Program-made: the position numbers and the translations under genes | Assembly: GCA_019240525.1 (NCBI GenBank) | Contig: JAFAYE010000001.1 | Coordinates: forward strand, 1,895,300-1,959,299 | Reading direction: 5' to 3' | Origin: Candidatus Eremiobacterota bacterium | GTDB taxonomy: Bacteria; Vulcanimicrobiota; Vulcanimicrobiia; Vulcanimicrobiales; Vulcanimicrobiaceae | DNA length: 64,000 bases | The notes under the pieces: model-generated | What the model saw: only the letters and a program-made list of their open reading frames with translations | Told to the model about the DNA's origin: nothing | The model's database searches: none | Shown here: positions 3,852 to 57,086 of the stretch, piece by piece | Numbering within the stretch: the first letter of the stretch is position 1 | Layout of the letters: every line of letters begins with the position of its first letter

Positions 3852-3856
3852 CTTCA

Positions 3857-20669: not shown

Positions 20670-20693
20670 GCGCAGTGAGCGCGCATTGCCGCC

Positions 20694-27896: not shown

Positions 27897-28180
27897 TGTC
27901 ATCCTGAGCTTGTCGAAGGACGACCCTTCGACTCGCGCTGCGCGCTCGCTCAGGACTGCGCTTCGCGCAGGCAAAATTGTGTCATCCTGAGTCGAAGGAC
28001 GCTGTCATCCTGACCCTTCGACTTGCGCTGCGCGCTCGCTCAGGACTGCGCTTCGCGCAGGCAAAATTGTGTCATCCTGAGCCTGTCGAAGGATGCGGCC
28101 GGGCATGCTTCGACAGGCTCAGCATGACACTGCGCTCATGCTTCGACAGGCTCAGCATGACAAGGCGGCTCAGCATGACA
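27897..28180. repeat. repeat cluster with a 68-bp direct duplication
   Basis: The 330-bp gap between divergent genes holds units in both orientations. A 68-bp composite block occurs twice, 27924-27991 and 28014-28081, differing at one base; it joins a partial unit, a GC-rich stretch able to form small hairpins (TGCGC/GCGCA) and the start of another unit. Further units at 28092-28180 are in the opposite orientation, and one near 28168 is truncated to its last third. The arms ATCCT/AGGAT near 28071-28095 form a complete hairpin stem. Nothing else is seen in the gap. Confidence 0.92.
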
Positions 28181-33342: not shown

Positions 33343-34641
33343 TTGATGATCTTCGAAGAGGAGAAGGTCGAAGGCTTGATCGTGCAATGCCGGCTGCGCG
33401 AGGCAAGTGCGGCGTTGATGCTCGACGGTGCGCCCCGGCGCGCACGCGCCATGGTTTACGCGATGGCCGGAGACGATCGCGGCCTGGCGCGAGTGGTTGA
33501 TTCGGCGTTGCTCGGTTGTCGCGGCGCTGCTGAAGTCGCCAACTATTACCTCCGGACGGAACTCGAGCCGACCGCCGGCGATCGCTTCGTCACGGCGGTG
33601 GTCTTAGCGTGGGCCTCCGACGCGCCCGGCTGTTATGCGGCCCTCGGAGTTGCGCGCGATACGGCCATATCCGAGCGGCGCTTCCATCTTGCCGTTGCGG
33701 CGGGCGAACGGCTCGCGCACCACGCGCTGCTCTTCGGCAATCTCGATCTAGCACGCCGTGCGATCGACGAGGCCGTGGGATGTGCGGCCATGTATCGCTT
33801 GAACGCATGGTTCCCGCGTTGTTTGGCGATCGCGGCACGGCTCGCGCTCGATGCCGGGGAAAACGAGCAGGCCGGCGAGCTGCTCGAACGTGCCCGCGCC
33901 GCTGCAAACTCGCCCGAGGAGATGACGCTCCTTGCGGCCATCGGCGCGCAGTTGGCCATCGAGCTTGGCGACGACGATCTCCTGCGGCGATGGAGCACGC
34001 CGGAGATCGTGGAGATGGCGCAGCGGAGCGAGCGTCCCGAGGTTTCGATCTCGGGCACCATCGCTGCATTGCTGGCCGCCGGTGCGCCGGAGCCAAATTC
34101 GTCCACTGCCGCGGCGCTACGCCGCGCCCTGTTTCAAGAGGATAGTGCGGCGAATGCGCCGGAGCTTTTCACGATCGTCGCGCACTACGGCGAGCTCGAA
34201 GATGCAACGATCGCGGTCAACGCGCTCGGCGCCGCGGTCGCGCCCAATCGTCCCTATCTGCACGCGCATCATCTACTCGCGCGCGCGCACGCGCTCTTGC
34301 GAGCCGGCGAACGCCTCGGTTGCGTGGATGCGGCCGGTGACGCCGCCCGCGCCTTCGCGACGATGGGCCTGCGCCGTTGGACGAACGAAGCGATGCGACT
34401 ACTGGTTTCCCAAGAGCAAGGTTCGCAGCGTCTGCGTGGCCGTCCCAGCGGCGCGGCACTGACCGAGCGAGAGCAGCAGGTCGCGCAGCTGATTCGGCGC
34501 GGTGCGCGAAACCGCGAGGTCGCGACCGCGCTGCAGATCAGCGAGCACACTGTCGAGCGTCACGTAAGCTCGATTCTCGGGCGGCTCGGGTTGCGTTCGC
34601 GCTGGCAGATCGCCGATCCGCGCAAGGATGCCGAACATTAA
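33343..34641 (+). CDS. LuxR-type transcription regulator
   Basis: A 432-residue cytosolic protein. The last 65 residues form a LuxR/FixJ helix-turn-helix: L-T-E-R-E-Q-Q-V-A-Q-L-I-R-R-G, R-E-V-A-T-A-L, and I-S-E-H-T-V-E-R-H-V-S-S-I-L. The first 360 residues are helical, alanine-rich repeats resembling TPR/SEL-type helices, without a recognisable receiver or ATPase domain. ATG 33343 opens the frame. It is followed after 159 bp by the TonB/PstS-like operon on the same strand, so it is a candidate regulator of it; that link is position only. Confidence 0.82.
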   Translation: MMIFEEEKVEGLIVQCRLREASAALMLDGAPRRARAMVYAMAGDDRGLARVVDSALLGCRGAAEVANYYLRTELEPTAGDRFVTAVVLAWASDAPGCYAALGVARDTAISERRFHLAVAAGERLAHHALLFGNLDLARRAIDEAVGCAAMYRLNAWFPRCLAIAARLALDAGENEQAGELLERARAAANSPEEMTLLAAIGAQLAIELGDDDLLRRWSTPEIVEMAQRSERPEVSISGTIAALLAAGAPEPNSSTAAALRRALFQEDSAANAPELFTIVAHYGELEDATIAVNALGAAVAPNRPYLHAHHLLARAHALLRAGERLGCVDAAGDAARAFATMGLRRWTNEAMRLLVSQEQGSQRLRGRPSGAALTEREQQVAQLIRRGARNREVATALQISEHTVERHVSSILGRLGLRSRWQIADPRKDAEH

Positions 34642-34800: not shown

Positions 34801-37800
34801 TTGCTCAAGGGCTTGCTCCGGTTGAAGAAGCGCGCTATTTTCATAGGGCTCTGTTACGTCGCGGCGTCGCACGGCCGCGTGCTCGCTGAGACGGGCGGCC
34901 TGATCTCGGGGACGGTCTCCGACGATCGCACGCACGCTGGGGTGGCAGGGGCTCAAGTCGTTGCCAAATCGCCGAGCGGAACCTATACGACGGTTACCGA
35001 CAGCAAGGGACACTTTCGTTTTCTGAGCGTGCTGCCCGATAACTACGCGCTATCGGTCACCGACAAGAACTACCTGCCATACTCGGTTACGGTCGTCGTC
35101 CTCAACGCGTCGCAGCAGACCATCAACGTTGCGCTCTCCAAGACCCTCAAGATCATCGCCAGCACGCACGCTCGCTCGTCGGGAAGTGCCTTTCAGCGCG
35201 GAATGACGATCGACACCTACACCGTTACCGGATCGCAAATCCAAACCGTCATGGGCAAGTCGTTCAACTCGCGCGAGGAAGACTTGCTGCGCAGCATTCC
35301 CAGCGTCACCATCGATAAGAGCGGCACGATCTCGATTCGTGGCGGTTTCGCCTTCGAGGCCGCCTACGAGTTCGAAGGCATCGACTACACGACGCCGACG
35401 GCAAATTTACAGAATACGCTGCAGAACATCGCCAACTTCAATTTACTCAACGGCGTCGGCGGCGTGCAGCTTATCCCCGGCGCGGGCGACGCGACGCACG
35501 GCGACACCGGAACGGGCTTGGTGCTGTTCACGGCCAAGAACGGAACGTATCCCACCTACTTCCACGCCGATGTCGAGTCGCTGCTCTTCCCGTACTTGCA
35601 TCAGCTCGGGCTGGAGTGGGGCTGGGCCGATCCTTCACAGCGGCTATCAAACTATGCCGGTTTTATCGGCATCCGCCGCGCTTACCAATACGGTATCAAC
35701 GGAACCGCGGCCAATACGCTGGGCACGCTCGGGACCAACGCCGCCACCTTGGGCAGTACCATCGATCCGAATCTGGTCTACTATTCGCCGCAGTTTCTGA
35801 AGTCGAACGACTTCGTCGACAATCTGATCTACCGGTTCGGTCATAACAACAATCAGCGCTTGCAGTTTTTCGTTCAGGATCAGTCCATCAAACAGACCCT
35901 CGATTACGGCGGCTTTCAATACCTGCCGTACATCTCGGGCGGTACGACTGCGGGCAAATGCTCGCCCTATCCGATCGTTGGCCCGGGCGGCCCGGTAAAC
36001 TCGGCGCAGCAGGAGTACGCCTGCAACTCCCTCATCCCGCTTTTTCCCGGTCAGCCCAGCGCCTCGGCGTTCGTTTCCGAGCCCGACACCTTGCAGAGCC
36101 CGTTTGAAGCGTACAAGCTCGAGTACGATCTGAACCTGGGAAGCTCGACGCTCCTGACGACGCGCTTTTTCCGCACGTTTAGCCAGCAGTCGGAGACGTT
36201 GCCGGCGCAAGGCATCTTCGCCCAGCCCTATGGCGGCAATCGCACGGCGGGGCAGATTGACGGCACGACCCAGCTGGGCACCAAGAACCTGCTCAAATAC
36301 GGCACGATCTACGAGTACGTTGTGCCCTACGGCAATCGCTACGACTTCACGTCGTACACCGCGTTCACGACGCCGGCTTACATTATCACCTACCCGATCA
36401 CCCATCCGCTGCAGCCGCTGCCGTTGCCATATACGTACACCGGCTTGTTGCCGAACAATAACCCGGCAGCGCAACAAGGCCTCGAGGAAGATTTCTTCTC
36501 GCCGGCCTTCTGCGCGCAGCTGAACCTGCATACGGGCTGCGGATACTTGAGCTCGTACTTTCCCGCCGGAGTGCACTTTCCGTTCGAGGAAGACGTCGAG
36601 ACCGTCGCTCAGCAGCAGTACGGAACCTATCTGCAAGATACCATCGAGATGTCGGAACGCTGGAAGGCCGAAGCGGGAGTGCGGCTCGACGGTTACAACT
36701 TCCAGATTCCTACACTGGCCGGCGCTCCCGCTTCGATTCCCGCCGCCGAGCACCAGCGGCTCTACGAGCCGCACCTCGACGCGTCGTATCTGCCCGACAA
36801 CCGCGATACGTTTCGATTCGGATTCGGCCACACGCTCTCGATGCCGCTCCCCAGCCTGCTCGGCGCGGACGTGAGCCAAGTACCGTACGCGCCGTTCGAT
36901 AACATCCCGTCGTACGACAACTCGACGGGTAAGGCCGCGGATTACTGCGGTCCGCACGCCAACGCGCTCTGCTCGAGCTACGGCCAGCAGCTCTATTGGC
37001 TCACCCGCGATTACCGTTATGGCAGTTCGACGTTGGAGACGCCGCTGGTCGGCGCCACCTTCACCAACATCGATTTCTCGTGGGCGCACGCGTTTCGCGA
37101 CGGCGCGGCGTTCAAGCTCACGCCCTTCTACCGTCGCGGCTATAACGTCATCGAGCAGACCGCGCAGATCGTCGGCTTCAACTACCAGACCGGTTCGCCC
37201 GTTTACGGTGACGTCCAATATTCCAACCTCGGCATTCAAAAAGCCACCGGAATCGAAGCGCTGTACACCAAGGAAATTCCGCTCGGAATTTCGATGCAGA
37301 TCGGCGCGACGTACATCAGTCAGTTCGGCAACGAGCCGCCCGGCGCGTTCCTGCAACCGGCAGCGCTTGCGCTCGGCGTGGTCTACCGGTCGCCGGATCT
37401 CTCGCCGTTTCAGCTCAACGCGGCCTTTAACTACAAGAGCGCGCATGGCTGGCGTATCAATCCGGTTATCTACGCGAACTCCGGTTTTCCGTACGGCGCC
37501 GGATACTACACTGCCGTGTATTGCAACGGCATTCCGGTGATCGTTCCCAACACGAGCCTTTCGGTGATCTACTCGCAGACGCCGGGATACATCGATCCGC
37601 TCGATCCAGGAACGTGCACGAAACCGAACATTGCCGCCACCCGTGGTATTTCGGAGCGCGGACTTCCCGGCGGCTTTCTCACGACGCCGCGCGTGGATGC
37701 CGACTTGACCGTCGAGTATCGCCCCGAAGTCCGCGGGCTCGCGCAATCGGTCCTCGGCTTGCAGGTCGTTAACTTATTCAACGAGCTTTATAACGTTCCG

Positions 37801-37983
37801 ATCATCAACGGCTGCTACGGTAATCCGGTGGCGATCGGATTGCAGAGCGGCAACGCCCCCTGCACGTACTCGACGGCACCATACGCGCCGCCCGACGTCA
37901 CGGCCCACTCGAGCGCGCCCTATCTCACGTATCCGAACCTGCCGCCGATTTCGTTTCGCTTCTACTATCAGGTGACCTTATGA
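34801..37983 (+). CDS. TonB-dependent outer-membrane receptor
   Basis: A 1060-residue outer-membrane transporter. After a short signal (A-I-F-I-G-L-C-Y-V-A-A-S) residues 34-112 are a carboxypeptidase-regulatory-like beta-sandwich (G-T-V-S-D-D, F-R-F-L-S-V-L-P). A plug follows at about 140-245 (L-L-R-S-I-P-S-V-T-I, I-S-I-R-G-G), then a long beta-barrel to the C-terminus (F-R-F-Y-Y-Q-V-T-L). It would import a scarce ligand using TonB energy; tonB/exbBD are not in the window. The TTG start has only a G-rich upstream stretch and in-frame TTGs follow, so the exact start is open. It overlaps the next gene by 4 bp and heads an operon with a PstS-like protein, making a phosphorus compound a plausible ligand. 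Confidence 0.87.
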   Translation: MLKGLLRLKKRAIFIGLCYVAASHGRVLAETGGLISGTVSDDRTHAGVAGAQVVAKSPSGTYTTVTDSKGHFRFLSVLPDNYALSVTDKNYLPYSVTVVVLNASQQTINVALSKTLKIIASTHARSSGSAFQRGMTIDTYTVTGSQIQTVMGKSFNSREEDLLRSIPSVTIDKSGTISIRGGFAFEAAYEFEGIDYTTPTANLQNTLQNIANFNLLNGVGGVQLIPGAGDATHGDTGTGLVLFTAKNGTYPTYFHADVESLLFPYLHQLGLEWGWADPSQRLSNYAGFIGIRRAYQYGINGTAANTLGTLGTNAATLGSTIDPNLVYYSPQFLKSNDFVDNLIYRFGHNNNQRLQFFVQDQSIKQTLDYGGFQYLPYISGGTTAGKCSPYPIVGPGGPVNSAQQEYACNSLIPLFPGQPSASAFVSEPDTLQSPFEAYKLEYDLNLGSSTLLTTRFFRTFSQQSETLPAQGIFAQPYGGNRTAGQIDGTTQLGTKNLLKYGTIYEYVVPYGNRYDFTSYTAFTTPAYIITYPITHPLQPLPLPYTYTGLLPNNNPAAQQGLEEDFFSPAFCAQLNLHTGCGYLSSYFPAGVHFPFEEDVETVAQQQYGTYLQDTIEMSERWKAEAGVRLDGYNFQIPTLAGAPASIPAAEHQRLYEPHLDASYLPDNRDTFRFGFGHTLSMPLPSLLGADVSQVPYAPFDNIPSYDNSTGKAADYCGPHANALCSSYGQQLYWLTRDYRYGSSTLETPLVGATFTNIDFSWAHAFRDGAAFKLTPFYRRGYNVIEQTAQIVGFNYQTGSPVYGDVQYSNLGIQKATGIEALYTKEIPLGISMQIGATYISQFGNEPPGAFLQPAALALGVVYRSPDLSPFQLNAAFNYKSAHGWRINPVIYANSGFPYGAGYYTAVYCNGIPVIVPNTSLSVIYSQTPGYIDPLDPGTCTKPNIAATRGISERGLPGGFLTTPRVDADLTVEYRPEVRGLAQSVLGLQVVNLFNELYNVPIINGCYGNPVAIGLQSGNAPCTYSTAPYAPPDVTAHSSAPYLTYPNLPPISFRFYYQVTL

Positions 37984-39170
37984 ACGCTCCACGTTGGTTT
38001 TTGCTCTCCGTCTCCGCCGCGCTGCTCGCAGCCTGCGGCAATAGCGGCGCTTCGGAACCCCCGGTGACGTCGTACGATCCCGCGGCCACGAGCAAACTGC
38101 AGTTTGCCGTCGGCGTCGCGACCATGTCGTTCAACGGCGGCAAGAGCGTAGCGTATGGTTTGAACACCGTCGACACATTGCGTCAGCAAGACGGACTCTC
38201 GGGAGTGCTCTACAGCATCCCGATGATTATCGGACCGACGAGCTTCAACGTCTTGACCTCGACGGAGACGGGCACCGACGTTCAGGACGCCGGGTCGGAC
38301 CTGGGCACGAATCACATCACGTGGGGCACGCTCAATCAATCGCACTGGACGACGGCGCCGCGCGGACCGAAGGCGTCGACCACCGGTGCTTTCGGTTACG
38401 GTCTATGTCCATGTAACTCCGATTCGGGTCCCGGTAACGGCTTCACGCCGCTCTTCCAATCGTTTTATCTGCCGATTTACGGCGAAACCGGCTATATCCA
38501 GCTGTGGTACGGTGGGCCGCCGGCCTTTCCGCAGGCAGGCCCGCCGGAGATCGCGTTAGGTTGGGAAGGGTACTCGCTGGGCTTTGCCGATTTTGCGGTG
38601 ACCCCGGTGGTCGGAACCTATCATTTGTACGCAGCCGTACCGCCGTCGTACGACACACCGCCGAATCCGACGCCGAGTCCCGGACCTAATGGAACGCCCA
38701 CGCCGCCGCCCGGCATTCTCGCGTCCGCGTCCCAACTGACAAACTTGACGCCCTTACCGCAGCTCGGCACACCGACGTTTACTCCCGACCACAACGGCGG
38801 CGGTAAGGTCAACATCACGGCGCCGTCGGGCGTGAGTGAAGTGTTGGTCGAGGTCTTGGCCGTCGGTAACAGCGGCGTCGGCATCTGCGTGCAATCCCAT
38901 CAAACCGACAGTTTCTATACGATCGTTACGAAAAAACCGGGCGCGCAATCGGTTGTTTTGCCCGACGATATCGGGCCGCTCACGCAATCGGGAAAGAAAA
39001 CGCCGACGATTTGTCCTAAAGGGACCTACGAAATCTATGCGGCCGGCGTTGACTATCCGGCTTACGAAGCGTCGTATCCGAATAATCTGAATCAGCTTCC
39101 GCTGATCAAAGGCCCGAACGGCCAGGCCGACGTCACCACCTCCGACGTGCTCACGGGCTCCTATCGGTGA
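37980..39170 (+). CDS. lipoprotein of unknown function
   Basis: A 396-residue lipoprotein (lipobox L-A-A-C at about residue 19), beginning in the ATGA overlap with the TonB receptor stop. The sequence is beta-rich with a Pro-rich linker near residues 223-245 (T-P-S-P-G-P-N-G-T-P-T-P-P-P) splitting two domains. A C-C pair (G-L-C-P-C-N) and isolated Cys may form disulfides. I recognise no family. Tight coupling to the receptor suggests it is a surface or periplasmic partner, as SusD-like or other lipoproteins are for their receptors, but it does not resemble SusD. Confidence 0.7.
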   Translation: MNAPRWFLLSVSAALLAACGNSGASEPPVTSYDPAATSKLQFAVGVATMSFNGGKSVAYGLNTVDTLRQQDGLSGVLYSIPMIIGPTSFNVLTSTETGTDVQDAGSDLGTNHITWGTLNQSHWTTAPRGPKASTTGAFGYGLCPCNSDSGPGNGFTPLFQSFYLPIYGETGYIQLWYGGPPAFPQAGPPEIALGWEGYSLGFADFAVTPVVGTYHLYAAVPPSYDTPPNPTPSPGPNGTPTPPPGILASASQLTNLTPLPQLGTPTFTPDHNGGGKVNITAPSGVSEVLVEVLAVGNSGVGICVQSHQTDSFYTIVTKKPGAQSVVLPDDIGPLTQSGKKTPTICPKGTYEIYAAGVDYPAYEASYPNNLNQLPLIKGPNGQADVTTSDVLTGSYR

Positions 39171-41131
39171 GAGGGCGCTTTTCGATCGCCAAAGCAGTTG
39201 CCGCGGCGATGATGGCGGCGACGGCGGCTTGCGGGGGCGGCGGCATGACGTTCGACTCGGTGGTGAACTCGCCGGGTGGCGGTTCGCACGATCCGCACAC
39301 GAAACTCGTCAACGTCAAAGTTACCGTGACGATTCCGGCGCAGAAGAAGCGCACGCGAATCGATCCGGATTATATTTCCGTCAACACCGGATCGCTGGTT
39401 ATTGGCTTAGCGTCAGTGAACGGCGTCGGCGTGACCGGCGTCAATCCAACGGTCATCAACACGCTCGCGCACTCGCACGGATGCAAAGCGAACGCCGGAG
39501 CGACGGTTTGCTCGGCAACCGCTCTGGGATCGCCGGGCAACGACGTCTTTGCGGTAACGACGTATGCGGCAACGAACGCCGACGGCGCGGTCCTTTCAGT
39601 CGGCACGGTCCAAGCGCAAATCGGCCAAAGCGGCGGCTCGACGCAGATCAGCAATACGCTGCCGCTGACCTTAGGCGGCGTGATCGCCGGTCTCAAGCTC
39701 TCCCTTTTTCCGGCCGGCGCCAAACGCGGAAAAGCAGCACGTGCTACCGTCACCTTGCTCGCCTTCGACGCCAGCGGTGCGCAGATCGTCGGACCGAGCG
39801 ATTACGAGAATCCTATCGCGCTGCAAATCCAGGGCGACACCGATAACGCCTTTTCGCTGCACGCGAATGGAAAAACGGGCGCGTCTCTAACGATCGCCAA
39901 GCCGACCTCGAACATAATCCTGACCTACGACGGCAACTCGCAAGCCTCGCCGATAACCCTTGCGGCGACCACGAGCGGCTCGGTCGGTAAGAGCGCCAAC
40001 TTCGCGCTGCACGGAAAAACGCCGCCGCCGCCGGTCGGCACGATCTACGCGCTGAATTTCGGAACCAACAGCGGCCAAACCGCGACCGTAACCGAGTACG
40101 ACGGTACGGCGAAAGGCAACGCGACGCCGGAGCGGACGTTGCAACTGAGCTCAAAGCTTTACGCGCGGAGCATTGCGGTGGACGCCAGCGGAAATCTGTA
40201 CGTCGGCTACTTCGATACGCCCGTCGGTTCTCAACCGTCGGGCACTCCCGATAAGGGAAATGAGATTGCGGTCTATGCGCCGGGCGCGAGCGGCAGCGCG
40301 TCGCCAACCTTCACCATTACGTCGGACCAGAATTCGCAGACGGCGATTTTCCCGGCCTACATGACGTTCGACCCCTCGGGAGATTTGGTGACGTACGGTT
40401 CGACGGGTGTCGACGGGAACGGCGGAAACGATGCCGTGCTGACGTATTCGCCGGGAAGTATGGGCGCGGTTGCGCCGGCGTACGGCTGGGCGTTCGTTGC
40501 GCCGTTACTGACCTATCCCGGCCCAACCGGCTTGGCCATCGACGCTTCAGGCAACTTTTACGTCAACGGCGCGCTGCACACGTCGCTCGGACCGAGTTAC
40601 GGCACCTTCGTGGCACCCGCTGCCGACATTGGCAATCCCGCGGTGAACCCGTCGCGCACGATTCCGTGGAATTACAGCAACACGCAGCTCCCGCCACTCT
40701 TCACGACCGACGTCGCGATTGACGCCAGCGGCGAACCGTTCATCGCGAACAGCGTAACGCAGGGGAGCGGCAGTTCAACGTCGTGCCAGGGCAACGCCAA
40801 CGTTTATTCGGCGAGCCCGAGTGGCGGCGTCACGAACGTACCGCCGCTGCGGGTCTTGACCTTGGGCGGCGTGTTGACCAAGAACTCACAATGCGGCAAC
40901 CCCACCTATCCGCTGGTGCCGTACTTCCCCTCGATCACGCTCTTCGGCACAATCCTCTTCGTCGCCGACGACTTCAACAACGCGATCGATGCCTACAAGG
41001 CCTCCGCGCACGGCAACGTACAGCCGAGCCTGCAAATCACCGGCTCGGCCACCGGGCTGAATGCGCCGATCGCGGTGGTGATCACATCAGCTTCCGGGCA
41101 GGCCAAGGCCCGTCCGGCTCAGTCCCTTTGA
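39167..41131 (+). CDS. two-part propeller lipoprotein
   Basis: A 654-residue protein from GTG 39167, overlapping the preceding stop by 4 bp. The signal (A-K-A-V-A-A-A-M-M-A-A-T-A-A-C) suggests a lipoprotein. Residues 50-290 look like a beta-sandwich/Ig-type region, then from about 300 NHL-like blades appear (S-I-A-V-D-A-S-G-N-L-Y-V-G-Y, G-L-A-I-D-A-S-G-N-F-Y-V-N, V-A-I-D-A-S-G-E-P-F). It is the third gene of the TonB operon. Function unknown; an accessory binding protein at the outer membrane is a reasonable guess. Confidence 0.75.
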   Translation: MRGRFSIAKAVAAAMMAATAACGGGGMTFDSVVNSPGGGSHDPHTKLVNVKVTVTIPAQKKRTRIDPDYISVNTGSLVIGLASVNGVGVTGVNPTVINTLAHSHGCKANAGATVCSATALGSPGNDVFAVTTYAATNADGAVLSVGTVQAQIGQSGGSTQISNTLPLTLGGVIAGLKLSLFPAGAKRGKAARATVTLLAFDASGAQIVGPSDYENPIALQIQGDTDNAFSLHANGKTGASLTIAKPTSNIILTYDGNSQASPITLAATTSGSVGKSANFALHGKTPPPPVGTIYALNFGTNSGQTATVTEYDGTAKGNATPERTLQLSSKLYARSIAVDASGNLYVGYFDTPVGSQPSGTPDKGNEIAVYAPGASGSASPTFTITSDQNSQTAIFPAYMTFDPSGDLVTYGSTGVDGNGGNDAVLTYSPGSMGAVAPAYGWAFVAPLLTYPGPTGLAIDASGNFYVNGALHTSLGPSYGTFVAPAADIGNPAVNPSRTIPWNYSNTQLPPLFTTDVAIDASGEPFIANSVTQGSGSSTSCQGNANVYSASPSGGVTNVPPLRVLTLGGVLTKNSQCGNPTYPLVPYFPSITLFGTILFVADDFNNAIDAYKASAHGNVQPSLQITGSATGLNAPIAVVITSASGQAKARPAQSL

Positions 41132-41165
41132 CGCACTCACTCGTCCGAAAAAGGAAAGCCTACAC

Positions 41166-42632
41166 ATGAGAAAGACCCTCGCTACTCTGGCCTTGGCAGC
41201 CGCGCCGGTGCTCGTTTTGAGCGCCTGCAACGGAAATGCCGGCGGAGGTTCCGGAGTGGCTGCGCTTCCGAACTCCGGCGCGCCGGCATCGCAGCACAGC
41301 CGCTTCCATCACAACGACAATGGCCCGCAGGATTTGCACGCGGGCGGCGCTACGTTCCCGGCGCAAGCCTATAACGGCGCAAGTCAGCCTGTCGGCACTT
41401 ACAATCATCCGCAAGCGCCTCCCGCATCGGGTTCGCTCTTCGCGCACTACGGCGGCGTGGGAACGATCTATTACTGTCTCACCGGCAGCGGCTTCGGTCG
41501 CAAGGAGTTCACCGGCCAATCGATCACCGCAACCCAGGCGTGCGCCGGCCTCGGCGACTCGCCCGTGGGTTTCGGCGCTCGTCAGGATCCGCTCGATTTC
41601 GTCGGCAGCGACGTCGCGATGACCGAAGGCTCACAGACGACGCCGGGCGATTGCTGCGCTAGCTACAGCTACTACGCGATTAACCGCGCGGCGACGTACG
41701 GTCAGCCGTTCGAGTTTCCGACCTTGGGCGGCCCAATCGTCTTCGGTTATCGTCCGCAAGACTTCCCGAAGGTCTCGATCAAGCTCTCGACCTGGACGTA
41801 TTGCGCGATCGTCAACGGCACGGTCAACAACTGGAACGATCCGGCGATCTCGGCCGATAACGGCCAGTCGGTAACCGGCGGCGTTTCGCAAACGATCACG
41901 TTCTACTACCGTTCCGACGGTAGCGGCACGACCTACAATCTCACCAGCCACCTGTATGCGGCGTGCAACCCGGGCTCGTGGCCCGCGCCGTACAACACCT
42001 ATCCGTACCAAGGCTCCGGTCGGGACGCTTCATTCCCGTATCAGGCGACCCAGAACTGGCCGATCACGACGCCGTCGAACTTCGTTGGCGCGAGCGGCAA
42101 CCCGGGCGTTCTCGCCGGTATCCAATCGACGCCGTACGGCACGGGATACGTTGAAGGCGCGTACGCCAAAGTCGCCAACCCGAAAGTCTCTCAGGCGCTC
42201 CTCCAAAGCGGCTACAATAACCAAGCCAACGAGCCGTACTGGGTCAGCGCGACCAACAAGAGCGCGGTGTCCGCCGCACTCAAACACGTTACGGCGAGTG
42301 CAATCTCGTACGGAACCGCCAGCGACTACCCAACGACTCCCGGCTCGCTCAATTCGAGCACCCCGTGGTGCCAGCTCTTCGTTCCGTATTCGGTCTTCGC
42401 GTTACCGCCGGCTAAGACGTATCCAATCGTCGGCGTTACCTACATGCTGTTCTACGGAAATAATCAGGGCGTTCACCTCAGCGATAAGACGACGTTGGTG
42501 AACTACATCATCTCCAAGCCGGCACAAAACATCATCAAGAGTCTGGAGTACGCTCCGCTCTCGAGTTCCATTCACGGCGCTGTCAAGGCCGCTCTGACCG
42601 GCACCGCCAGCCAGCCCTCCTGTCTCCAGTAA
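41166..42632 (+). CDS. PstS-like phosphate-binding lipoprotein
   Basis: A 488-residue lipoprotein (lipobox L-S-A-C). The fold signature is that of PstS-type periplasmic binding proteins: G-G-A-T-F-P-A-Q-A-Y near residue 58, D-F-V-G-S-D-V-A-M-T, and the phosphate-loop motif R-S-D-G-S-G-T-T-Y-N, equivalent to the Ser-Gly-Thr phosphate contacts of PstS. It is longer than PstS (about 320-370) with extra loops and several Cys. No pstC, pstA or pstB is adjacent; instead it sits in an operon with a TonB receptor, so it may present phosphate (or a phosphate-like ligand) to that system. Confidence 0.85.
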   Translation: MRKTLATLALAAAPVLVLSACNGNAGGGSGVAALPNSGAPASQHSRFHHNDNGPQDLHAGGATFPAQAYNGASQPVGTYNHPQAPPASGSLFAHYGGVGTIYYCLTGSGFGRKEFTGQSITATQACAGLGDSPVGFGARQDPLDFVGSDVAMTEGSQTTPGDCCASYSYYAINRAATYGQPFEFPTLGGPIVFGYRPQDFPKVSIKLSTWTYCAIVNGTVNNWNDPAISADNGQSVTGGVSQTITFYYRSDGSGTTYNLTSHLYAACNPGSWPAPYNTYPYQGSGRDASFPYQATQNWPITTPSNFVGASGNPGVLAGIQSTPYGTGYVEGAYAKVANPKVSQALLQSGYNNQANEPYWVSATNKSAVSAALKHVTASAISYGTASDYPTTPGSLNSSTPWCQLFVPYSVFALPPAKTYPIVGVTYMLFYGNNQGVHLSDKTTLVNYIISKPAQNIIKSLEYAPLSSSIHGAVKAALTGTASQPSCLQ

Positions 42633-42634
42633 GG

Positions 42635-43414
42635 ATGCGAACGTTTAACGCGCGCCGCGGTAGCGCGGCGCGCGTTAATCCTCGCGCCGTTCTTGCGAGC
42701 GCCGCAATTCTGGCGGCAGGATGCGGCGGCTCGAGTTCTTCCTCCACGATGCCGGCGCAAGGAGCGCAGGCCGTCCACGTGCGCCTCGTCGACGGCGCGC
42801 CGGCGCTTGAGACCTACATCGGCGGATTCTTGGAAAAGATCACTCCGGCGTACGCCACCCTCAACGGCGTCACGGTAACGTCGGCATTGTCGTACGGGAC
42901 GATCACGCCGTTTACAACCTGCGCCGCCGGAGCGGCATCGATCATCGCGCGTAACGACCAAGGCTACGCGGTCGGTCCGCTCAAAACGCCGAACCTCACC
43001 GCGGGCGGTCACTATACGCTGATCATCGTTGGTGCGTATCCGCACTACAGCGTGCTCGCAATTTCCGAACCGGCAACCAGCGGAAGCGCTCAGCTCTCGT
43101 TGTATGAGGCGTCGCCGTCAACCGCGCAAGCCAGTTTTGGAAGCTTTCGCGCGTCGAACAAGTCCGAGTTCAAGTCACTCGGCAGCGCGAGCTACGGGAG
43201 TGAGGTGACCGTCTCGCTGGGCAAGAGCGTCACCGATTTCGGCGGATACGCTGGTCCGGCCGGCGCACCGCTCGGCACGGTGACTCCATCGCAAATCGAC
43301 TCGTTCGATTCTAAGAACGCGCTTCCGTTCAATGCGGTCGCTCGGCTTTCGCTCTTTCTCTTCGATTCGACGACGAGCAGCAGTCAACGAGTCTTCGGGA
43401 GCCTCGACCAATGA
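42635..43414 (+). CDS. DUF4397-domain lipoprotein
   Basis: A 259-residue lipoprotein with lipobox A-A-G-C at about residue 29. The DUF4397 beta-sandwich is shown by V-H-V-R-L-V-D-G-A-P-A, G-V-T-V-T-S-A-L-S-Y-G, and H-Y-T-L-I-I-V-G. Family members are envelope proteins of unknown role. The start ATG 42635 is only 2 bp after the previous stop and lacks a spaced ribosome binding site. The first 15 codons overlap a perfect 15-bp hairpin (42645-42678). The stop overlaps the next gene's start by 4 bp. Confidence 0.78.
   Translation: MRTFNARRGSAARVNPRAVLASAAILAAGCGGSSSSSTMPAQGAQAVHVRLVDGAPALETYIGGFLEKITPAYATLNGVTVTSALSYGTITPFTTCAAGAASIIARNDQGYAVGPLKTPNLTAGGHYTLIIVGAYPHYSVLAISEPATSGSAQLSLYEASPSTAQASFGSFRASNKSEFKSLGSASYGSEVTVSLGKSVTDFGGYAGPAGAPLGTVTPSQIDSFDSKNALPFNAVARLSLFLFDSTTSSSQRVFGSLDQ
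42645..42678 (+). terminator. 15-bp GC hairpin inside the DUF4397 5' coding region
   Basis: Bases 42645-42659 pair perfectly with 42664-42678 around a four-base loop (GTAG). The stem is nearly all GC apart from four A/T pairs at its base (TTAA). No T tract follows. It begins 12 bp after the PstS-like stop, where a terminator would be expected, yet it also encodes codons 4-15 of the next gene. Confidence 0.6.
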
Positions 43415-44490
43415 AAGCTTCGGCACTCTTTCTCACATTGATGTCCGCTGCGGCCATCGGCTCGGCGATCGCCGGCTGCGGCGCGGTCGGCCCGGCGCCC
43501 TCGGGCATTGGCACTTCGGCGCCCGAGCCGACGGCGACACCCGCGGCCAGACTTCTCTACGTCGATCACAACGGGACGTTCTACGAATACCGGCTGCCGT
43601 TGACGCCGAGCTCAACGCCCGAGCGAACGCTCGTTGAATGGCCGAAGCTTCCGCTTCCGCCGGTGATCGCAGCCGATCAATACGGAAATGTTGCGGTCGC
43701 CAGTTCGGAGTCGATTCGTTTCTTTCGCGCGCCGATCACGAGTTTTGCCCAAGCGCGCGCATACAGCACGCTCAAACTGACTCCGGCGATTACACAGATC
43801 GGCGATTCAGGCGCCGACCTCGTGGACATTGAGTACGATCCCAACGAAAATCTCTGGCTGCTCAACAATCTGGGCGCGCTCGTCTCGGAACTGCGTGCGC
43901 CGATCCGCAAATCGAGCGTTGCGGCCGTTGAAATCGGCTTCGGCGCGCCGGGTTCGAAGACCGCCGGCTACACCACGCTCGTGCAGGCGCGTTTCGACGT
44001 CAACGCGGCGCTCTACGTCTACGCCAGCTCTGCGACGCGATCGCGTCTGTTCAAGACCAGTTTTCCCTACGCCAAGCAGCCCGGCTCGATTGGAGTGAAC
44101 CTCGCCCAAGCAGATTTTGTCGATTCGAGCCAGTGGCCACCGACGTCGCCGATTGCGCCATCGCTGCTGCTGGGACAGTATTTCGGCCCGCTGCGCTCAC
44201 CCACACCCGGCTCGCCCCCATCGCCTCCCGCCGACGTGACCGCGCAGTTTCCGCAGCCTTTTAACGAAGAGCAAGGTCGTTTTCCGGAGTCGCACGTCAA
44301 CTCGGTCTCCGGCGCACTCATCGCCGATACGTATCGTAACAGCCTCTACACACTCGATGCGACCGACGGAAGTCTGCTCGTCTACGGTCTGCCGCTCGAC
44401 AACAACGCGAAGACCAAGGTATCGTTGCCGTGTTTGGGCGGCGCCGCCGAGTGCGACCTCAAGCCCGAGCATCTCTTTCTCGCACCGTAG
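43411..44490 (+). CDS. propeller-like lipoprotein, last gene of the TonB operon
   Basis: A 359-residue lipoprotein (lipobox I-A-G-C at about residue 23), started within the ATGA overlap with the DUF4397 gene. Blade-like segments include R-L-L-Y-V-D-H-N-G-T-F-Y-E-Y, V-I-A-A-D-Q-Y-G-N-V-A-V-A, V-D-I-E-Y-D-P-N-E-N-L-W-L-L and the C-terminal N-S-L-Y-T-L-D-A-T-D-G-S. A Pro/Ser-rich loop lies at about 255-275. No catalytic motif. Likely another binding component of the envelope complex encoded by the operon. Confidence 0.72.
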   Translation: MKASALFLTLMSAAAIGSAIAGCGAVGPAPSGIGTSAPEPTATPAARLLYVDHNGTFYEYRLPLTPSSTPERTLVEWPKLPLPPVIAADQYGNVAVASSESIRFFRAPITSFAQARAYSTLKLTPAITQIGDSGADLVDIEYDPNENLWLLNNLGALVSELRAPIRKSSVAAVEIGFGAPGSKTAGYTTLVQARFDVNAALYVYASSATRSRLFKTSFPYAKQPGSIGVNLAQADFVDSSQWPPTSPIAPSLLLGQYFGPLRSPTPGSPPSPPADVTAQFPQPFNEEQGRFPESHVNSVSGALIADTYRNSLYTLDATDGSLLVYGLPLDNNAKTKVSLPCLGGAAECDLKPEHLFLAP

Positions 44491-46663: not shown

Positions 46664-47386
46664 ATGCCCGCCCATTGCGATGCCAGTCGGGTTGCTGTTG
46701 TCCTCGCGATAACGCTCGGATTATTCGGCTGTAACGGCGCCTTCGGCGAACGCGTGCATGAAACGGTTGCGCAGTCGGTGGCCACTGGCGCGGCCCCGCG
46801 CGTACGCGTCGAGAACGTGGCCGGCACCGTTCGCATCGTCGGATGGGGGAAGCCCGAGGCCGAGGTTATCGCAACGAAGTACGGCTACGACGCGCAAGAA
46901 CTGCGCAATATTTCGGTCGCAGTTCGCTCGGAACCCGCCGGCGTCGCCGTCGTAACAAGTTATGCGGCGGGTTCGCAGGGGGGCGGAGGGCACCAAGGCG
47001 GCGTGAACTATCGCATCTCGGTTCCCACGGCCGCCTCGCTGAACGTGCAGAATACCGCCGGAGCGGTCGATGTGGACGGGATCGCCGGCGACGTCGCAGT
47101 CACGACAGAGGCCGGTGAGATTACCGCGAGCGTTGGACGCGTTGCCGGAAGCCGAGCGATCGATTTGAACGCGACGACCGGCGCGATAACCTTGACGATT
47201 GCCGGCGGCAGCAGCGCGCGCGTCGAGGCCGGCAGCACCGTCGGCAACTTTAGCAGCGACGTTCCCGGAGTATCTGCGGTGCGCGAGAATGTTGTCGGGT
47301 CGCGCGGTTCGGGAACGATCGGTACGGGAAGCGGACGAATTCGACTGACCACAACCACCGGCGCGATCGCGCTGCGCGAACGATAA
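46664..47386 (+). CDS. DUF4097-like lipoprotein
   Basis: A 240-residue lipoprotein (lipobox L-F-G-C). The body is a beta-solenoid of the DUF4097 type: V-R-V-E-N-V-A-G-T-V-R-I-V-G-W, then successive short turns L-N-V-Q-N-T-A-G-A-V-D-V-D-G and I-D-L-N-A-T-T-G-A-I-T-L. Members are often encoded beside envelope stress genes, with no known activity. ATG 46664 has a weak ribosome binding site. Its stop overlaps the first phosphoesterase gene by one base (TAATG), so the two are coupled. Confidence 0.78.
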   Translation: MPAHCDASRVAVVLAITLGLFGCNGAFGERVHETVAQSVATGAAPRVRVENVAGTVRIVGWGKPEAEVIATKYGYDAQELRNISVAVRSEPAGVAVVTSYAAGSQGGGGHQGGVNYRISVPTAASLNVQNTAGAVDVDGIAGDVAVTTEAGEITASVGRVAGSRAIDLNATTGAITLTIAGGSSARVEAGSTVGNFSSDVPGVSAVRENVVGSRGSGTIGTGSGRIRLTTTTGAIALRER

Positions 47387-48789
47387 TGCGCGCGAGGTTG
47401 CTTCGCGCCGCGGGCATTGCGTCGCTGGTGTTTGCGACCGCCGCGTGCGGCGGAACGGCTACGAACGCGACGCCAAACGGCGCCGCCACCTTGCCATACT
47501 CGCGACGCGCTTCGAGCTCGAGCGCCATCCAGCACGTGGTGATCGTTATTCAAGAGAATCGCACCTTCGATAATCTCTTCGCTACTTTTCCGAATGCCGA
47601 CGGAACGACGCAGGGGCGAATGAAGTTGCCAAGCGGCGGCTACAGCTACATCCCATTGCAGAAGAGCAACTTAGTCGAACCCTGCGATTTCGGGCACTCG
47701 TATCGCGGCTATCGGAAAGATTACGACAACGGCGCAATGGACGGCTTCAATCTCGAGGGCGGCGGAAAGCCGTGCCCCGGGCCGACCGGCACCAAGACGT
47801 ATCAATATGTCAATCGCGCTCAGATCGCGCCATACTGGGCAATCGCCAAGAGTTGGGTGCTCGCCGATCACATGTTTCAGACGCAAGGCAGCGGCAGCTT
47901 TACCGCGCACCAAGATTTGATTCGCGGCGGCACCTTGATCGAGGCCGGGCGCAAGAGCAAGACGCTCGTTGACTTTCCGTCGGCCATGCCCTGGGGATGC
48001 GATGCGCCGAAGTATACGAAGACGTCAATCTTGGTCTCGAAGGGCGTCGACGAGCTTTCGCACTACCGTCGGCACGACGGCCCATTCCCGTGTCTCACCT
48101 ACCCGACACTGCGCGATCTGCTCGATTCCAAGGGGGTCACGTGGAAATATTACTCGCCGCCCGAACCGCGTGGAACCGGAAAACTCTGGAGCGCTTTCGA
48201 CGCCATTCAGGCCGTGCGCGAGGGACCCGAGTGGGCGACGAACGTCGTGCCGACCACGCAGTTCTTTAGCGACGTGCAATACGGACAGCTTGCCGGCCTC
48301 TCGTGGATCGTGCCCGATCTGTTTAATTCGGATCATCCAGCCACAGCGTACGATTACGGACCGTCGTGGGTTGCCAGCATCGTGAATGCCATCGGCGAGA
48401 GCGCGTATTGGAACTCGACGGCGGTCATCGTCGTTTGGGACGACTGGGGCGGATTCTACGACCACGTCGCGCCGCCGCTGCAGGATCAATCGGGCGGATT
48501 GGGCTTCCGCGTTCCAATGCTGCTCGTCTCCCCATACGCCCGCAAAGCCTCGCCCAAACATCCCGGATACGTATCGCACACGCAATATGAGTTCGGCAGC
48601 ATCATCAAGTTCGTCGAAGACACCTGGAATCTCGGCAGCTTGGGCACCACTGACGTTCGCGCGACGAGCATCGTCGACTCGCTCGATTTTTCCCAATCGC
48701 CGCGTCCGTTCCACCCGATTCCGTCGGAGCGCTCGCGCGTATTTTTCGAGCATCAAAGGCCCTCGTATCAGCCGGTAGATACGGAGTAA
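47386..48789 (+). CDS. phospholipase C/acid phosphatase-type phosphoesterase A
   Basis: A 467-residue lipoprotein of the phosphoesterase family (PF04185; PlcC/PlcH, AcpA). Catalytic markers of AcpA-like enzymes are all present: Q-E-N-R-T-F-D near residue 55 (metal Glu/Asn), the nucleophile Ser in G-S-G-S-F-T-A-H-Q (about 166) and metal Asp-Asp in W-D-D-W-G-G (about 350). Lipobox T-A-A-C. It would release phosphate from phosphomonoesters or head groups from phospholipids outside the cytoplasm. Subfamily markers: P-C-D-F-G-H-S-Y-R-G and W-G-C-D-A-P-K. Followed by copy B with a 20-bp gap. Confidence 0.9.
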   Translation: MRARLLRAAGIASLVFATAACGGTATNATPNGAATLPYSRRASSSSAIQHVVIVIQENRTFDNLFATFPNADGTTQGRMKLPSGGYSYIPLQKSNLVEPCDFGHSYRGYRKDYDNGAMDGFNLEGGGKPCPGPTGTKTYQYVNRAQIAPYWAIAKSWVLADHMFQTQGSGSFTAHQDLIRGGTLIEAGRKSKTLVDFPSAMPWGCDAPKYTKTSILVSKGVDELSHYRRHDGPFPCLTYPTLRDLLDSKGVTWKYYSPPEPRGTGKLWSAFDAIQAVREGPEWATNVVPTTQFFSDVQYGQLAGLSWIVPDLFNSDHPATAYDYGPSWVASIVNAIGESAYWNSTAVIVVWDDWGGFYDHVAPPLQDQSGGLGFRVPMLLVSPYARKASPKHPGYVSHTQYEFGSIIKFVEDTWNLGSLGTTDVRATSIVDSLDFSQSPRPFHPIPSERSRVFFEHQRPSYQPVDTE

Positions 48790-48809
48790 GCTCGGAGGGA
48801 GGTAACGCC

Positions 48810-50228
48810 ATGGTTTTAGGAAAAAAACGTGGCGTGCTTCGTTATCTTTGCGCAGCGCTTATCGGCGCCTTCGTTCTGAATGCGTGCTCCGGCGGCGCGT
48901 CCGCAGGCAACTCGGCCGGCGTCTCGCTTCCGCAGTCGGGGAGCGGCAGCGGCGGAAGCTCGACGTATATCCAGCACGTCGTGATCGCGATTCAAGAAAA
49001 CCGCAGCTTCGACGATTTCTTCGCGACCTTCCCGGGCGCCGACGGAACGACGTACGGCGAGATGAAGAACCCGTCGGGCTCCGGCGACGTCGAGGTTCCG
49101 TTGACCGAAGTCAACTTAATCGATCCGTGCGATTGGGGCCACTCGTACAAAGGGTTTGTTTCCGATTACGACGGTGGAAAGATGGACGGCTTCGGCAACG
49201 AGGGCGGCGGTCCGAAGTGTCCGGGAAAAGCGGCGACTCAAGTTTACCAGTACGTCAATCCGCAGCAGTTGGCGCCCGATTGGGACATCGCGCAGCAATA
49301 CGTGCTCGCCGATCACATGTTTCAGACGCAAGGCAGCGGCAGTTTCACCGCGCACCAAGATCTGATCGCCGGCGCGACGATTATCAACGCGCCGACCGAC
49401 ACCAAGAGCCTGGTCGATTTTCCCTCGACGATCCCATGGGGTTGCGACGCCCCGAAAGGCACTAAGACGTCGCTGCTGGTGAACCTGGGTACGAAACTCA
49501 GGGACGAATACCATAAAGGGCCGTTTCCGTGCCTGACCTACGACACGATGCAAACCTTGCTCGACGCCAAGGGTGTTAGTTGGAAGTATTACTCACCGCC
49601 CGAACCTCACGGCACCGGCGAATACTGGAACGCGTTCGACGCGATTCAGGCCGTGCGTGAGGGTCCCGAGTGGAAAACCAATATCGCCTCGACCAATCAA
49701 TTCTTCACCGACATCAGCGCCGGGAATCTGCCGTCGGTTTCATGGATCGTTCCTGATAACGCCGATTCCGACCACCCGGCAACTCCCTCCGATACCGGAC
49801 CGTCATGGATTGCCTCGATCGTGAACGCCGTCGGCCAAAGCTCGTATTGGGACTCGACCGCGATCATCGTCGTCTGGGACGATTGGGGCGGTTTCTACGA
49901 TCACGTTCCGCCGCCGCTGCGTGACAACTGGGGAGGCCTGGGTTTTCGCGTGCCGATGATGGTCATCTCACCGTACGCACGTGAAGCGTATCCGAGTCAG
50001 CCGGGTTACATCTCCCACACGCAGTACGAGTTTGGCAGCATCCTGAAGTTCATCGAAAACATCTGGGGTCTCGGCAGCTTGGGCACGACCGACGTGCGCG
50101 CGACGAGCATTGTTGACTGCTTCGACTTCACCCAGTCGCCGCGGCCCTTTACCACGATTCCGTCGACCTACTCGAAGAGTTACTTTCTGCACCGCGCGCC
50201 GTCGTATAAACCGGTCGACACGGAATAA
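48810..50228 (+). CDS. phosphoesterase B (PLC/AcpA family)
   Basis: A 472-residue lipoprotein, close paralog of copy A over its whole length (I-Q-H-V-V-I-A-I-Q-E-N-R-S-F-D-D, C-D-W-G-H-S-Y-K-G, G-S-G-S-F-T-A-H-Q-D, W-D-D-W-G-G-F-Y-D-H). The catalytic Glu/Asn, Ser and Asp-Asp residues are kept. Lipobox L-N-A-C. A GGAGGGAGG stretch stands about 8 nt before ATG 48810, a stronger translation signal than copy A has. Probably the same extracytoplasmic activity with a different substrate range. The MBL-fold gene begins 26 bp downstream. Confidence 0.9.
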   Translation: MVLGKKRGVLRYLCAALIGAFVLNACSGGASAGNSAGVSLPQSGSGSGGSSTYIQHVVIAIQENRSFDDFFATFPGADGTTYGEMKNPSGSGDVEVPLTEVNLIDPCDWGHSYKGFVSDYDGGKMDGFGNEGGGPKCPGKAATQVYQYVNPQQLAPDWDIAQQYVLADHMFQTQGSGSFTAHQDLIAGATIINAPTDTKSLVDFPSTIPWGCDAPKGTKTSLLVNLGTKLRDEYHKGPFPCLTYDTMQTLLDAKGVSWKYYSPPEPHGTGEYWNAFDAIQAVREGPEWKTNIASTNQFFTDISAGNLPSVSWIVPDNADSDHPATPSDTGPSWIASIVNAVGQSSYWDSTAIIVVWDDWGGFYDHVPPPLRDNWGGLGFRVPMMVISPYAREAYPSQPGYISHTQYEFGSILKFIENIWGLGSLGTTDVRATSIVDCFDFTQSPRPFTTIPSTYSKSYFLHRAPSYKPVDTE

Positions 50229-50254
50229 CGCGCCCCGCATCCGAAGAGAGTTCT

Positions 50255-51658
50255 ATGGATTTTCGCATCGTTAGCCACGCTTGTCTCGACGTTCGGGCGA
50301 GCGGCAAGCGGCTGGTTATCGATCCGTGGCTGAACGAACCAACCTACTGGTCGTCGTGGTGGCACTGCCCGCCGCCGCTCTTCGGCGACGACATCTTTAC
50401 TGCCGACTACATCTACATCACGCACTGGCACTTCGATCATTTCGATCCGCGGACGCTGCGCAAGTTCGCAAAAACGACCACCGCCATCGTGCCGAAGTTT
50501 CCCATCTCCGGTCTACGTCAGCAGCTCGAGCAGATCGGCTTCGAACGCATCGTCGAACTGCGTCACGGCGAACGAATGAAGCTCGGCGACGACTTTTGGC
50601 TGACGAGCTATCAAATTAGTTTTCAAGACGACAGCGTCGCGGTGATGGAGGCAGATGGCACGGTGCTCATCGACCTCAACGACGCCAAGCCGCTTCCCTC
50701 GACGTGGCGTACGTTCCGCGCGAAGTATCCGAAGGTAGACTTTATGCTGCGCAGTCACTCGCCGGCATGGTCGTATCCCACGCGCTACACGTTCGAGGAT
50801 CCGGCCGACCGTCTACCGGTTGACGCGCGAACCTACATGGAGGCGTTCGTCGCCGCCGCGCAACAGCTTCGACCGCGTTACGCGGTGCCGTTCGCGAGCG
50901 GGATCTGCCATCTGCATCGCGAGGTGCTCGACGAAAACCGGTTTCTCGTCTCCGCGAACGATATGCGCGCCTACGCCGCAGCGAACGCCGCACGTTTGCC
51001 GGAAACAGCGCTGACGATTATGCCGGTGGGGAGCCGCTGGTCGTCAGAATCGGGATTCGAACTGACCGATAATTCGGTCGACGACATGGTCGCCTACGCC
51101 GAGCAGCGCGCGCAGACCGAGAGCGAGCGTTTGGAGAAGACGTACCGCTCGGAAGCGGCCAAGGAAATCGCCTTCCCCGATTTTTCTGGGTACTTCGAGA
51201 AATTTTTCCGCGCGATCGGCTTGGTGCGTCCGCTCTTGCGCAGAGCGCGCTGGGTCTTTCCCATCGAGGGGCGCGAATACTGGTGCGTCGATTTTGCAAA
51301 GGCGAAGATCGAGCGCAGCGAAGCGATGCCGGCCGAGTACGACAGTATCGTTACCGTTAGTCCGGCGGTCCTTTCCGCATCGTTGCGCAACGACGTCTTC
51401 ACTAACGTCGACATCTCCAAGCGCTGGCGCGTGCATATCAAACGCGGCAGCGCGATGCGCCACTTCATCGTCACCAACCTGCTCTTGCTGTACGAAGCGG
51501 AGTATCTCTCGCCCAAACGACTCTTTTCGTGGCGGTTCGTCAGCGGCTACGCGCGGCGACTGCCCGAAGTGATCGATTACGTCCGGATGGCATTCGTCAC
51601 CGCGACGCGGGGTAAAGATTCGCTGGTGACGGCCGTGACCAGCATTGCGGAGGGTTAG
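50255..51658 (+). CDS. MBL-fold metallohydrolase, CMAH/UlaG-like
   Basis: A 467-residue protein without signal peptide, so cytosolic. The metallo-beta-lactamase metal motif is T-H-W-H-F-D-H-F-D (His, His, Asp, His at about residue 55), after V-I-D-P-W-L and W-W-H-C-P-P-P-L, a layout like CMP-N-acetylneuraminate hydroxylase and related UlaG/NAPE-PLD-like enzymes. Residues 330-430 (V-S-P-A-V-L-S-A-S-L, F-T-N-V-D-I-S-K-R-W) resemble an SCP2-like lipid-binding tail, a tentative call. It lies between phosphoesterase genes B and C with short gaps. A lipid or phosphodiester substrate is possible but unproven. Confidence 0.8.
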   Translation: MDFRIVSHACLDVRASGKRLVIDPWLNEPTYWSSWWHCPPPLFGDDIFTADYIYITHWHFDHFDPRTLRKFAKTTTAIVPKFPISGLRQQLEQIGFERIVELRHGERMKLGDDFWLTSYQISFQDDSVAVMEADGTVLIDLNDAKPLPSTWRTFRAKYPKVDFMLRSHSPAWSYPTRYTFEDPADRLPVDARTYMEAFVAAAQQLRPRYAVPFASGICHLHREVLDENRFLVSANDMRAYAAANAARLPETALTIMPVGSRWSSESGFELTDNSVDDMVAYAEQRAQTESERLEKTYRSEAAKEIAFPDFSGYFEKFFRAIGLVRPLLRRARWVFPIEGREYWCVDFAKAKIERSEAMPAEYDSIVTVSPAVLSASLRNDVFTNVDISKRWRVHIKRGSAMRHFIVTNLLLLYEAEYLSPKRLFSWRFVSGYARRLPEVIDYVRMAFVTATRGKDSLVTAVTSIAEG

Positions 51659-51659
51659 C

Positions 51660-53024: not shown

Positions 53025-53170
53025 CACACTTTCATTTTCGCTGAATTGCGCGTCCAGCCGTTGCAGGGGAACCCCAGCGTGGGGTCGCATGAGATAGCCC
53101 CCGGCGCCCGCCGGATCCCCGTGGATAGCCTGTTCAAGGCACTTTCATGAAAGAAGAAGGAGCATCCCGA
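53025..53170 (+). promoter_or_regulatory. GC-rich structured leader of the propeller lipoprotein gene (unassigned)
   Basis: This 146-bp gap contains a perfect hairpin ACCCCA-GCG-TGGGGT (53071-53085), flanked by GGGG and CCCC runs that could pair over it, a second GC hairpin (CCGGC/GCCGG, about 53099-53112) and the word GATAGCC twice. AAGGAG about 9 nt before ATG 53171 is the ribosome binding site. No known riboswitch core was recognised; it could be a terminator of the phosphoesterase operon plus a 5' leader. Confidence 0.4.
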
Positions 53171-55265: not shown

Positions 55266-55346
55266 AGGAATTCGCTTCAAGCCGCCGCATTGAGCAGGCA
55301 AGTCCTCTCTCTTAAGAACGACAACTATGCATAGGAGACTTACGTC

Positions 55347-56369: not shown

Positions 56370-56494
56370 AAAAGTCAAAAATAGTTATTTTCCGGGCAGG
56401 AAACCGGGCGCTTTGCTCGCATTCAAGGCGGGCGGCGCCCCGCACGGCCGGTGCGTCAAACCTCAAAACACCTAGCTATTGAAGGAGTTCAAAC

Positions 56495-56998: not shown

Positions 56999-57036
56999 CA
57001 TCGACTCGCGGCTAGCGATAGCCTGAAGTTGAAGAA

Positions 57037-57069
57037 GGGGCCCGGCGAACGCCGGGCCCCTTTGTTTTT
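57037..57069 (+). terminator. strong intrinsic terminator between convergent blocks
   Basis: A perfect 10-bp GC stem (57037-57046 with 57051-57060), loop GAAC, followed by TTTGTTTTT. It ends the plus-strand block 39 bp after the lipoprotein stop at 56998. On the minus strand the hairpin is followed by TTCTTCAACTT, so it may also stop the phosphoesterase operon arriving from the right. Confidence 0.92.
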
Positions 57070-57086
57070 ATGGCGGCCTTCGCAGT

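Follow-up and report, generated by a model that had tools for sequence, protein, structure and literature searches.

A conserved operon joining a TonB-dependent receptor-like gene, lipoprotein B396 and a PstS-like lipoprotein in a Candidatus Eremiobacterota bacterium

Introduction

Why a PstS-like lipoprotein should be encoded beside a TonB-dependent receptor, in an operon that lacks an ABC permease gene, is the question raised by a locus of a Candidatus Eremiobacterota bacterium of the family Vulcanimicrobiaceae (assembly GCA_019240525.1). The locus was analysed within a stretch of 64,000 nucleotides, here called the window (contig JAFAYE010000001.1, positions 1,895,300 to 1,959,299, forward strand; coordinates below are those of the window unless another locus or contig is named). 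An initial annotation had proposed that the PstS-fold lipoprotein is coupled to the receptor and takes part in a surface-exposed or periplasmic relay. Our best answer, which we hold tentatively and short of conviction, is that six genes may form an outer-membrane uptake module for a phosphorus compound, in which the PstS-like protein would act as a tethered catcher that hands its ligand to PstSCAB. Searches of the open-licence literature, with most subscription journals out of their reach, found no account from this group of a TonB receptor operon that includes a PstS-type protein.

Results

The operon consists of six plus-strand genes, with spacings of -4, -4, +34, +2 and -4 bp between the consecutive open reading frames (ORFs) 1 to 6, which bears out the initial description of genes joined by 4-bp overlaps or gaps of 2-34 bp. 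The operon and the regulator gene upstream of it are as follows.

33343..34641, + strand: LuxR-type regulator with a C-terminal helix-turn-helix, directly upstream of the operon (NCBIfam NarL/CsgD-type HTH matches)
34801..37983, + strand: ORF 1, TonB-dependent receptor-like outer-membrane protein, 1060 aa (PF13620, 7e-14; PF00593, 26 bits)
37980..39170, + strand: ORF 2, lipoprotein B396, of no known family (lipobox Cys19; follows the receptor in 45/51 loci)
39167..41131, + strand: ORF 3, lipoprotein C654 (lipobox Cys22; no Pfam match; kept in the operon of relatives)
41166..42632, + strand: ORF 4, PstS-like lipoprotein, 488 aa (PF12849, 5e-16; TIGR00975, 4e-29; PstS matches in the PDB; lipobox Cys21)
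42635..43414, + strand: ORF 5, lipoprotein with DUF4397 (PF14344, 9e-8; lipobox Cys30)
43411..44490, + strand: ORF 6, lipoprotein F359, of no known family (lipobox Cys23; conserved with the module)

Third-position GC lies between 0.73 and 0.79 across all six ORFs, and the assignment of a TTG start to ORF 1 is tentative. With a simple in-house lipobox pattern, the N-terminal signal sequence of each of ORFs 2 to 6 was found to end in a lipobox, and the receptor is thus followed by five predicted lipoproteins. ORF 1 has a CarboxypepD_reg domain (PF13620) above the Pfam cut-off, and two ExbD matches are present in the genome of the window, while ORFs 2, 3 and 6 gave no convincing Pfam match; the C-terminal half of C654 looks by eye like NHL/SMP-30-like propeller repeats. 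Neither the ORFs nor the Pfam scan of the window proteins include an ABC permease gene in the operon, as had been stated at the outset, though pstS, pstC, pstA and pstB are present elsewhere in the genome.

Gene order in related genomes was examined by mapping the window proteins onto the fetched stretches. The order LuxR-type gene, receptor, B396, C654, PstS-like gene, DUF4397 gene and F359 is kept in eight further loci (L050, L051, L056, L059, L060, L063, L098 and L112), and the same six genes occur in permuted order in three more (L049, L054 and L058), L049 being a second copy of the operon in the window's own genome; further loci are truncated by the end of the contig. The initial annotation had pointed to operon order across genomes as one way to check its proposal, and since the six-gene arrangement recurs in other genomes it is not a product of chance. 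The LuxR-type gene is also found upstream in most of the fetched loci that share the window's gene order. Of 60 related genomes, 49 have a relative of the PstS-like protein, ordinary PstS included, and the close relatives (at least 50% identity) belong to the genus and to two other genera of the family; L052 and L123 are one and the same gene. Plasmid records contained PstS only at <60% identity and no match to the receptor, and a scan of viral contigs for B396 gave nothing. Fourteen loci from outside were considered as relatives of the module, but the seven checked by ORF reading resemble ordinary PstS followed by permease genes, and the module was therefore not extended to them.

The link between the receptor and the PstS-like gene was followed in 51 receptor genes of the fetched loci. 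These are part of all receptor matches, and 20 distant background loci among them were hand-picked from the listed matches rather than drawn at random. A PstS-like gene lies at most 8 kb away in 20/25 receptors with at least 37% identity, and the five receptors lacking one nearby (L081, L089, L115, L116 and L124) are all at contig ends, although in L115 9.8 kb of downstream sequence is present, yet without a PstS-like gene. Among receptors with at most 33% identity, some of which have short flanks, no PstS-like gene is nearby (0/26). In a tree of 52 receptors all PstS-linked ones fall into one clade (SH-aLRT 100), the 26 rows of which comprise 21 linked and five contig-cut receptors and cover two families of the class. 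The coupling of receptor and PstS-like protein is therefore real and old.

While this upholds the coupling originally proposed, the usual neighbour of the receptor is B396 (37980-39170). The gene for this lipoprotein directly follows the receptor in 45/51 loci, including 22/26 of the distant receptors, and so the near-universal partner of the receptor is B396 and not the PstS-like protein. Two of the six loci without it are cut 2 bp past the receptor. In 21 of the 45 loci the overlap between the start of B396 and the stop of the receptor gene is exactly 4 bp, and in all 45 a possible B396 start is found no more than about 18 nt from that stop. The lipobox cysteine is invariant (20/20 aligned relatives), and in the window's genome the family has only two members, one per operon. 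Searched with a profile of 20 B396 relatives, solved structures gave no match below E 0.2 and Pfam no convincing family, and there was no SusD match among the nine window proteins scanned or the 20 relatives; B396 is a new family of partner lipoproteins.

The PstS-like protein itself belongs to PBP_like_2 (PF12849, E 5e-16), with solved PstS chains among its PDB matches. Against the PstS model TIGR00975 it scores E 4e-29 and 101.7 bits, below the cut-off of 205, and it has inserts and shares about 28% identity with the PstS encoded in the same genome. In E. coli PstS the phosphate-contact positions are T10, F11, S38, D56, R135, S139, G140 and T141, and in an alignment that relies on this assumed numbering the window protein retains 8/8. 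The LuxR-linked copies of the window's kind also keep all contacts, save L060 with Ser for Thr at position 10. Eight copies (L049, L053, L055, L057, L061, L065, L119 and L121) share a paired change, in which position 10 is Asp and position 56 is Ala or Ser, and several of them show further contact losses. Five of the eight carry marker genes of a second chromosomal place, that of L049, where L120 retains the acid at 56; the tree requires two events for the paired change, with a single origin also possible. The solo copy L064 has Asp at 10 with 56 retained and other contacts lost. Most of the distant receptor-linked copies keep the contacts with Leu replacing Phe at 11, and three of them (L102 and the second copies of L100 and L103) have partly lost them. 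The acid of the pocket thus shifts from one paralogue to the other, which may mean that the second copy has an altered ligand or mode of binding.

With regard to cellular location, lipoproteins with Asn at +2 go to the outer membrane under the sorting rule of E. coli, and the lipobox of the window's PstS-like protein has Asn at this position, while a protein released by ordinary signal peptidase would be soluble in the periplasm unless exported further. The lipobox is present in the PstS-like copies of the genus and its neighbours, as well as in L067, L099 and L101, and is absent from the receptor-linked PstS-like proteins of L100, L102, L103, L104 and L105. Because of these relatives, a hand-off in the periplasm is no worse a fit than exposure at the surface, the two options that the initial annotation had offered for its relay, and the signal sequences speak for a periplasmic catcher, probably tethered in the lineage of the window, more than for an obligate surface lid. 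Such a lid, with the PstS-like lipoprotein sitting on the outer face and feeding its ligand into the receptor in the manner of SusD or BtuG, is the strongest of the alternatives, though we consider it rather unlikely. The lipobox of all genus copies and the run of five consecutive lipoproteins after the receptor agree with it, BtuB-BtuG is described as making such complexes (PMC10404256), and Caulobacter ElpS is reported to be a surface lipoprotein adjoining a TonB receptor gene (PMC2996285). Against it stand the five receptor-linked proteins devoid of a lipobox, and the lid-like slot beside the receptor gene is taken by B396.

The ordinary phosphate importer was identified in the same genome by ORF reading and a PF12849 match, with pstS, pstC, pstA and pstB together at L048 8019-11649, 0.7 Mb from the operon. 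In genome G031 (L066) the gene that immediately follows pstSCAB, 0.36 kb past pstB, is a long PstS-like one, an arrangement that ties the long PstS-like type to phosphate import. It would also suit a second alternative, in which the PstS-like protein is an extra binding protein that serves the PstCAB permease and is co-regulated with the receptor but not in a complex with it; several PstS proteins per genome are known elsewhere. This is improbable, as two families consistently show the link to a single receptor clade, and Asn at +2, if the E. coli rule applies, would place the protein at the outer membrane. In the uptake module outlined above, the importer would be the recipient of the ligand.

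Two features lie downstream of the operon.

46664..47386, + strand: DUF4097 lipoprotein, a conserved downstream neighbour (PF13349, 3e-10; also downstream in L050, L051, L059, L060 and L062)
47386..53024, + strand: an MBL-fold gene among three lipoprotein genes for phosphoesterases (PF04185), which are candidates for the release of phosphate

The PF04185 family (phospholipase C/acid phosphatase-like) is hugely expanded, and the genome of 2.8 Mb contains 58 matches, of which 15 lie within 35 kb starting about 3 kb past the operon (window 47386-62492; G000:C1:1942826-1977608). Each of 18 genus genomes has 21-68 such matches, and only 2/14 control genomes have any. As candidate members of the module the phosphoesterases were weakened by the finding that their adjacency is not kept in most fetched relatives, and they were therefore not counted in it. 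The MBL-fold hydrolase gene (50255-51658) is 77-84% identical in L059, L060 and L062, where it adjoins the DUF4097 gene near the operon. A Pho-box scan of the window gave 18 matches, 16 of which lie inside a tandem array at 7217-7817 that consists of about 22 copies of the 25-bp unit TGCTTCGACAGGCTCAGCATGACAA; this motif also occurs in two shorter arrays of the window (20690-20920 and 28103-28159). Two similar lipoprotein genes elsewhere in the window, at 2334-3944 and 29897-31465 (both on the minus strand), are by eye of the Kelch/galactose-oxidase type.

Discussion

In the uptake module that we propose, the receptor and B396 would constitute the transporter pair, on the plan of SusC/SusD or BtuB/BtuG, and the PstS-like lipoprotein would be a phosphate catcher anchored to the outer membrane beside the receptor, probably on the periplasmic face, with the outer face a close second. 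It may bind phosphate, or the phosphate part of a solute, during passage through the outer membrane and keep it for PstSCAB, the ordinary importer, whose genes lie elsewhere in the genome, the remaining three lipoproteins being putative accessory binding parts. This reading draws on the tight and conserved gene order, the link to one receptor clade, the full set of contact residues, the overlap of B396 with the receptor, the ExbD matches and the presence of pstSCAB, and further on the lipobox-free relatives, which point to the periplasm, the arrangement in L066 and the phosphoesterase genes downstream.

Several observations weigh against it. The TonB barrel match of ORF 1 (PF00593) reaches 26 bits against a cut-off of 27, i.e. 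it is one bit short, and single-sequence structure models, with a mean pLDDT of 30 for B396 and 32 for the PstS-like protein, give neither structure nor interface support. No Pho box of the E. coli type was found near the operon or at pstS, and phosphoesterases adjoin the operon in few relatives only. The second operon of the same genome (L049) is without several phosphate contacts, and the module is therefore not always phosphate-specific. Finally, solo PstS-like genes without a receptor nearby exist in L053, L057 and L064. Those in L053 and L057 occupy the chromosomal place of the complete operon L049, between CDO/FAD-type genes and a NUDIX gene, and we therefore tentatively read them as remnants or an older state rather than as counter-evidence to the coupling.

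Two further explanations fare worse than those discussed above. A sensing module, in which receptor and lipoproteins would import nothing and instead relay a phosphorus signal from outside, the LuxR-type regulator being the output, would suit the position of the regulator gene directly upstream in most fetched loci of the window's order, but is very unlikely, given that the scanned proteins include no apparent membrane or sigma/anti-sigma partner for the regulator and that the second-place copy L049 is without a LuxR-type gene. Equally hard to credit for this operon is a PstS fold reused for a cargo other than phosphate, which the eight copies with the paired change and the further losses in several of them would allow, but which the window and the LuxR-linked copies, keeping all contacts apart from the Thr-to-Ser change in L060, speak against.

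The uptake module can be compared with several known systems. The PusCD proteins of Flavobacterium are pairs of a TonB transporter and a SusD-type lipoprotein that are induced by phosphate depletion (PMC8115612), and they resemble the window operon in combining a TonB-dependent transporter with a partner lipoprotein and, as described there, in being tied to phosphorus scavenging and located with phosphatases. The tight and conserved pairing of transporter and lipoprotein genes that characterises SusCD and PusCD is seen here in 45/51 loci. The PusCD lipoprotein is SusD-type, whereas the window operon has no SusD match and has B396 as partner, plus a PstS-type lipoprotein, and the plant-associated PusCD strains covered there are without PstSABC, while the window's genome has pstSCAB (PMC8115612). 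In the vitamin B12 system BtuB-BtuG of Bacteroides, a TonB transporter and surface lipoproteins form lidded complexes (PMC10404256), and the two systems share a TonB transporter, adjacent lipoprotein genes and presumably a small-molecule ligand; in BtuB-BtuG the ligand is another one and the complex is proven, whereas for the window operon a complex is proposed and the likeness is one of layout. Caulobacter ElpS (CC0171) is a phosphate-starvation lipoprotein encoded beside a TonB-dependent receptor gene, a co-occurrence which the authors note (PMC2996285), and it is by description like the window's PstS-like protein, although unlike that protein it adjoins a type II secretion cluster and has no reported functional domain (PMC2996285). 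The PstSCAB importer shares the PstS fold family and the phosphate-contact residues with the window protein, but has permease genes, of which the operon has none, its PstS-like protein being a 488 aa lipoprotein with inserts.

Conclusions

The strongest new facts are the link between a receptor clade and the PstS-like gene, the B396 family and, in the second paralogue, the paired change that affects the pocket acid. A wider interpretation, possible but doubtful, is that a periplasmic-binding-protein fold was recruited, together with B396, as the ligand catcher of a TonB transporter, that this would be a class-wide phosphorus machine, and that the acid of the second paralogue has moved (Asp at 10 for 56) with a switch to another ligand. 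High-affinity passage of phosphate and organic phosphorus through the outer membrane is poorly understood beyond a few porins and PusCD, and an operon joining a TonB-type receptor, B396 and a phosphate-binding fold offers specific proteins for testing, while with the Asp swap between two paralogues nature has already set up an experiment on how PstS-type pockets choose their ligand.

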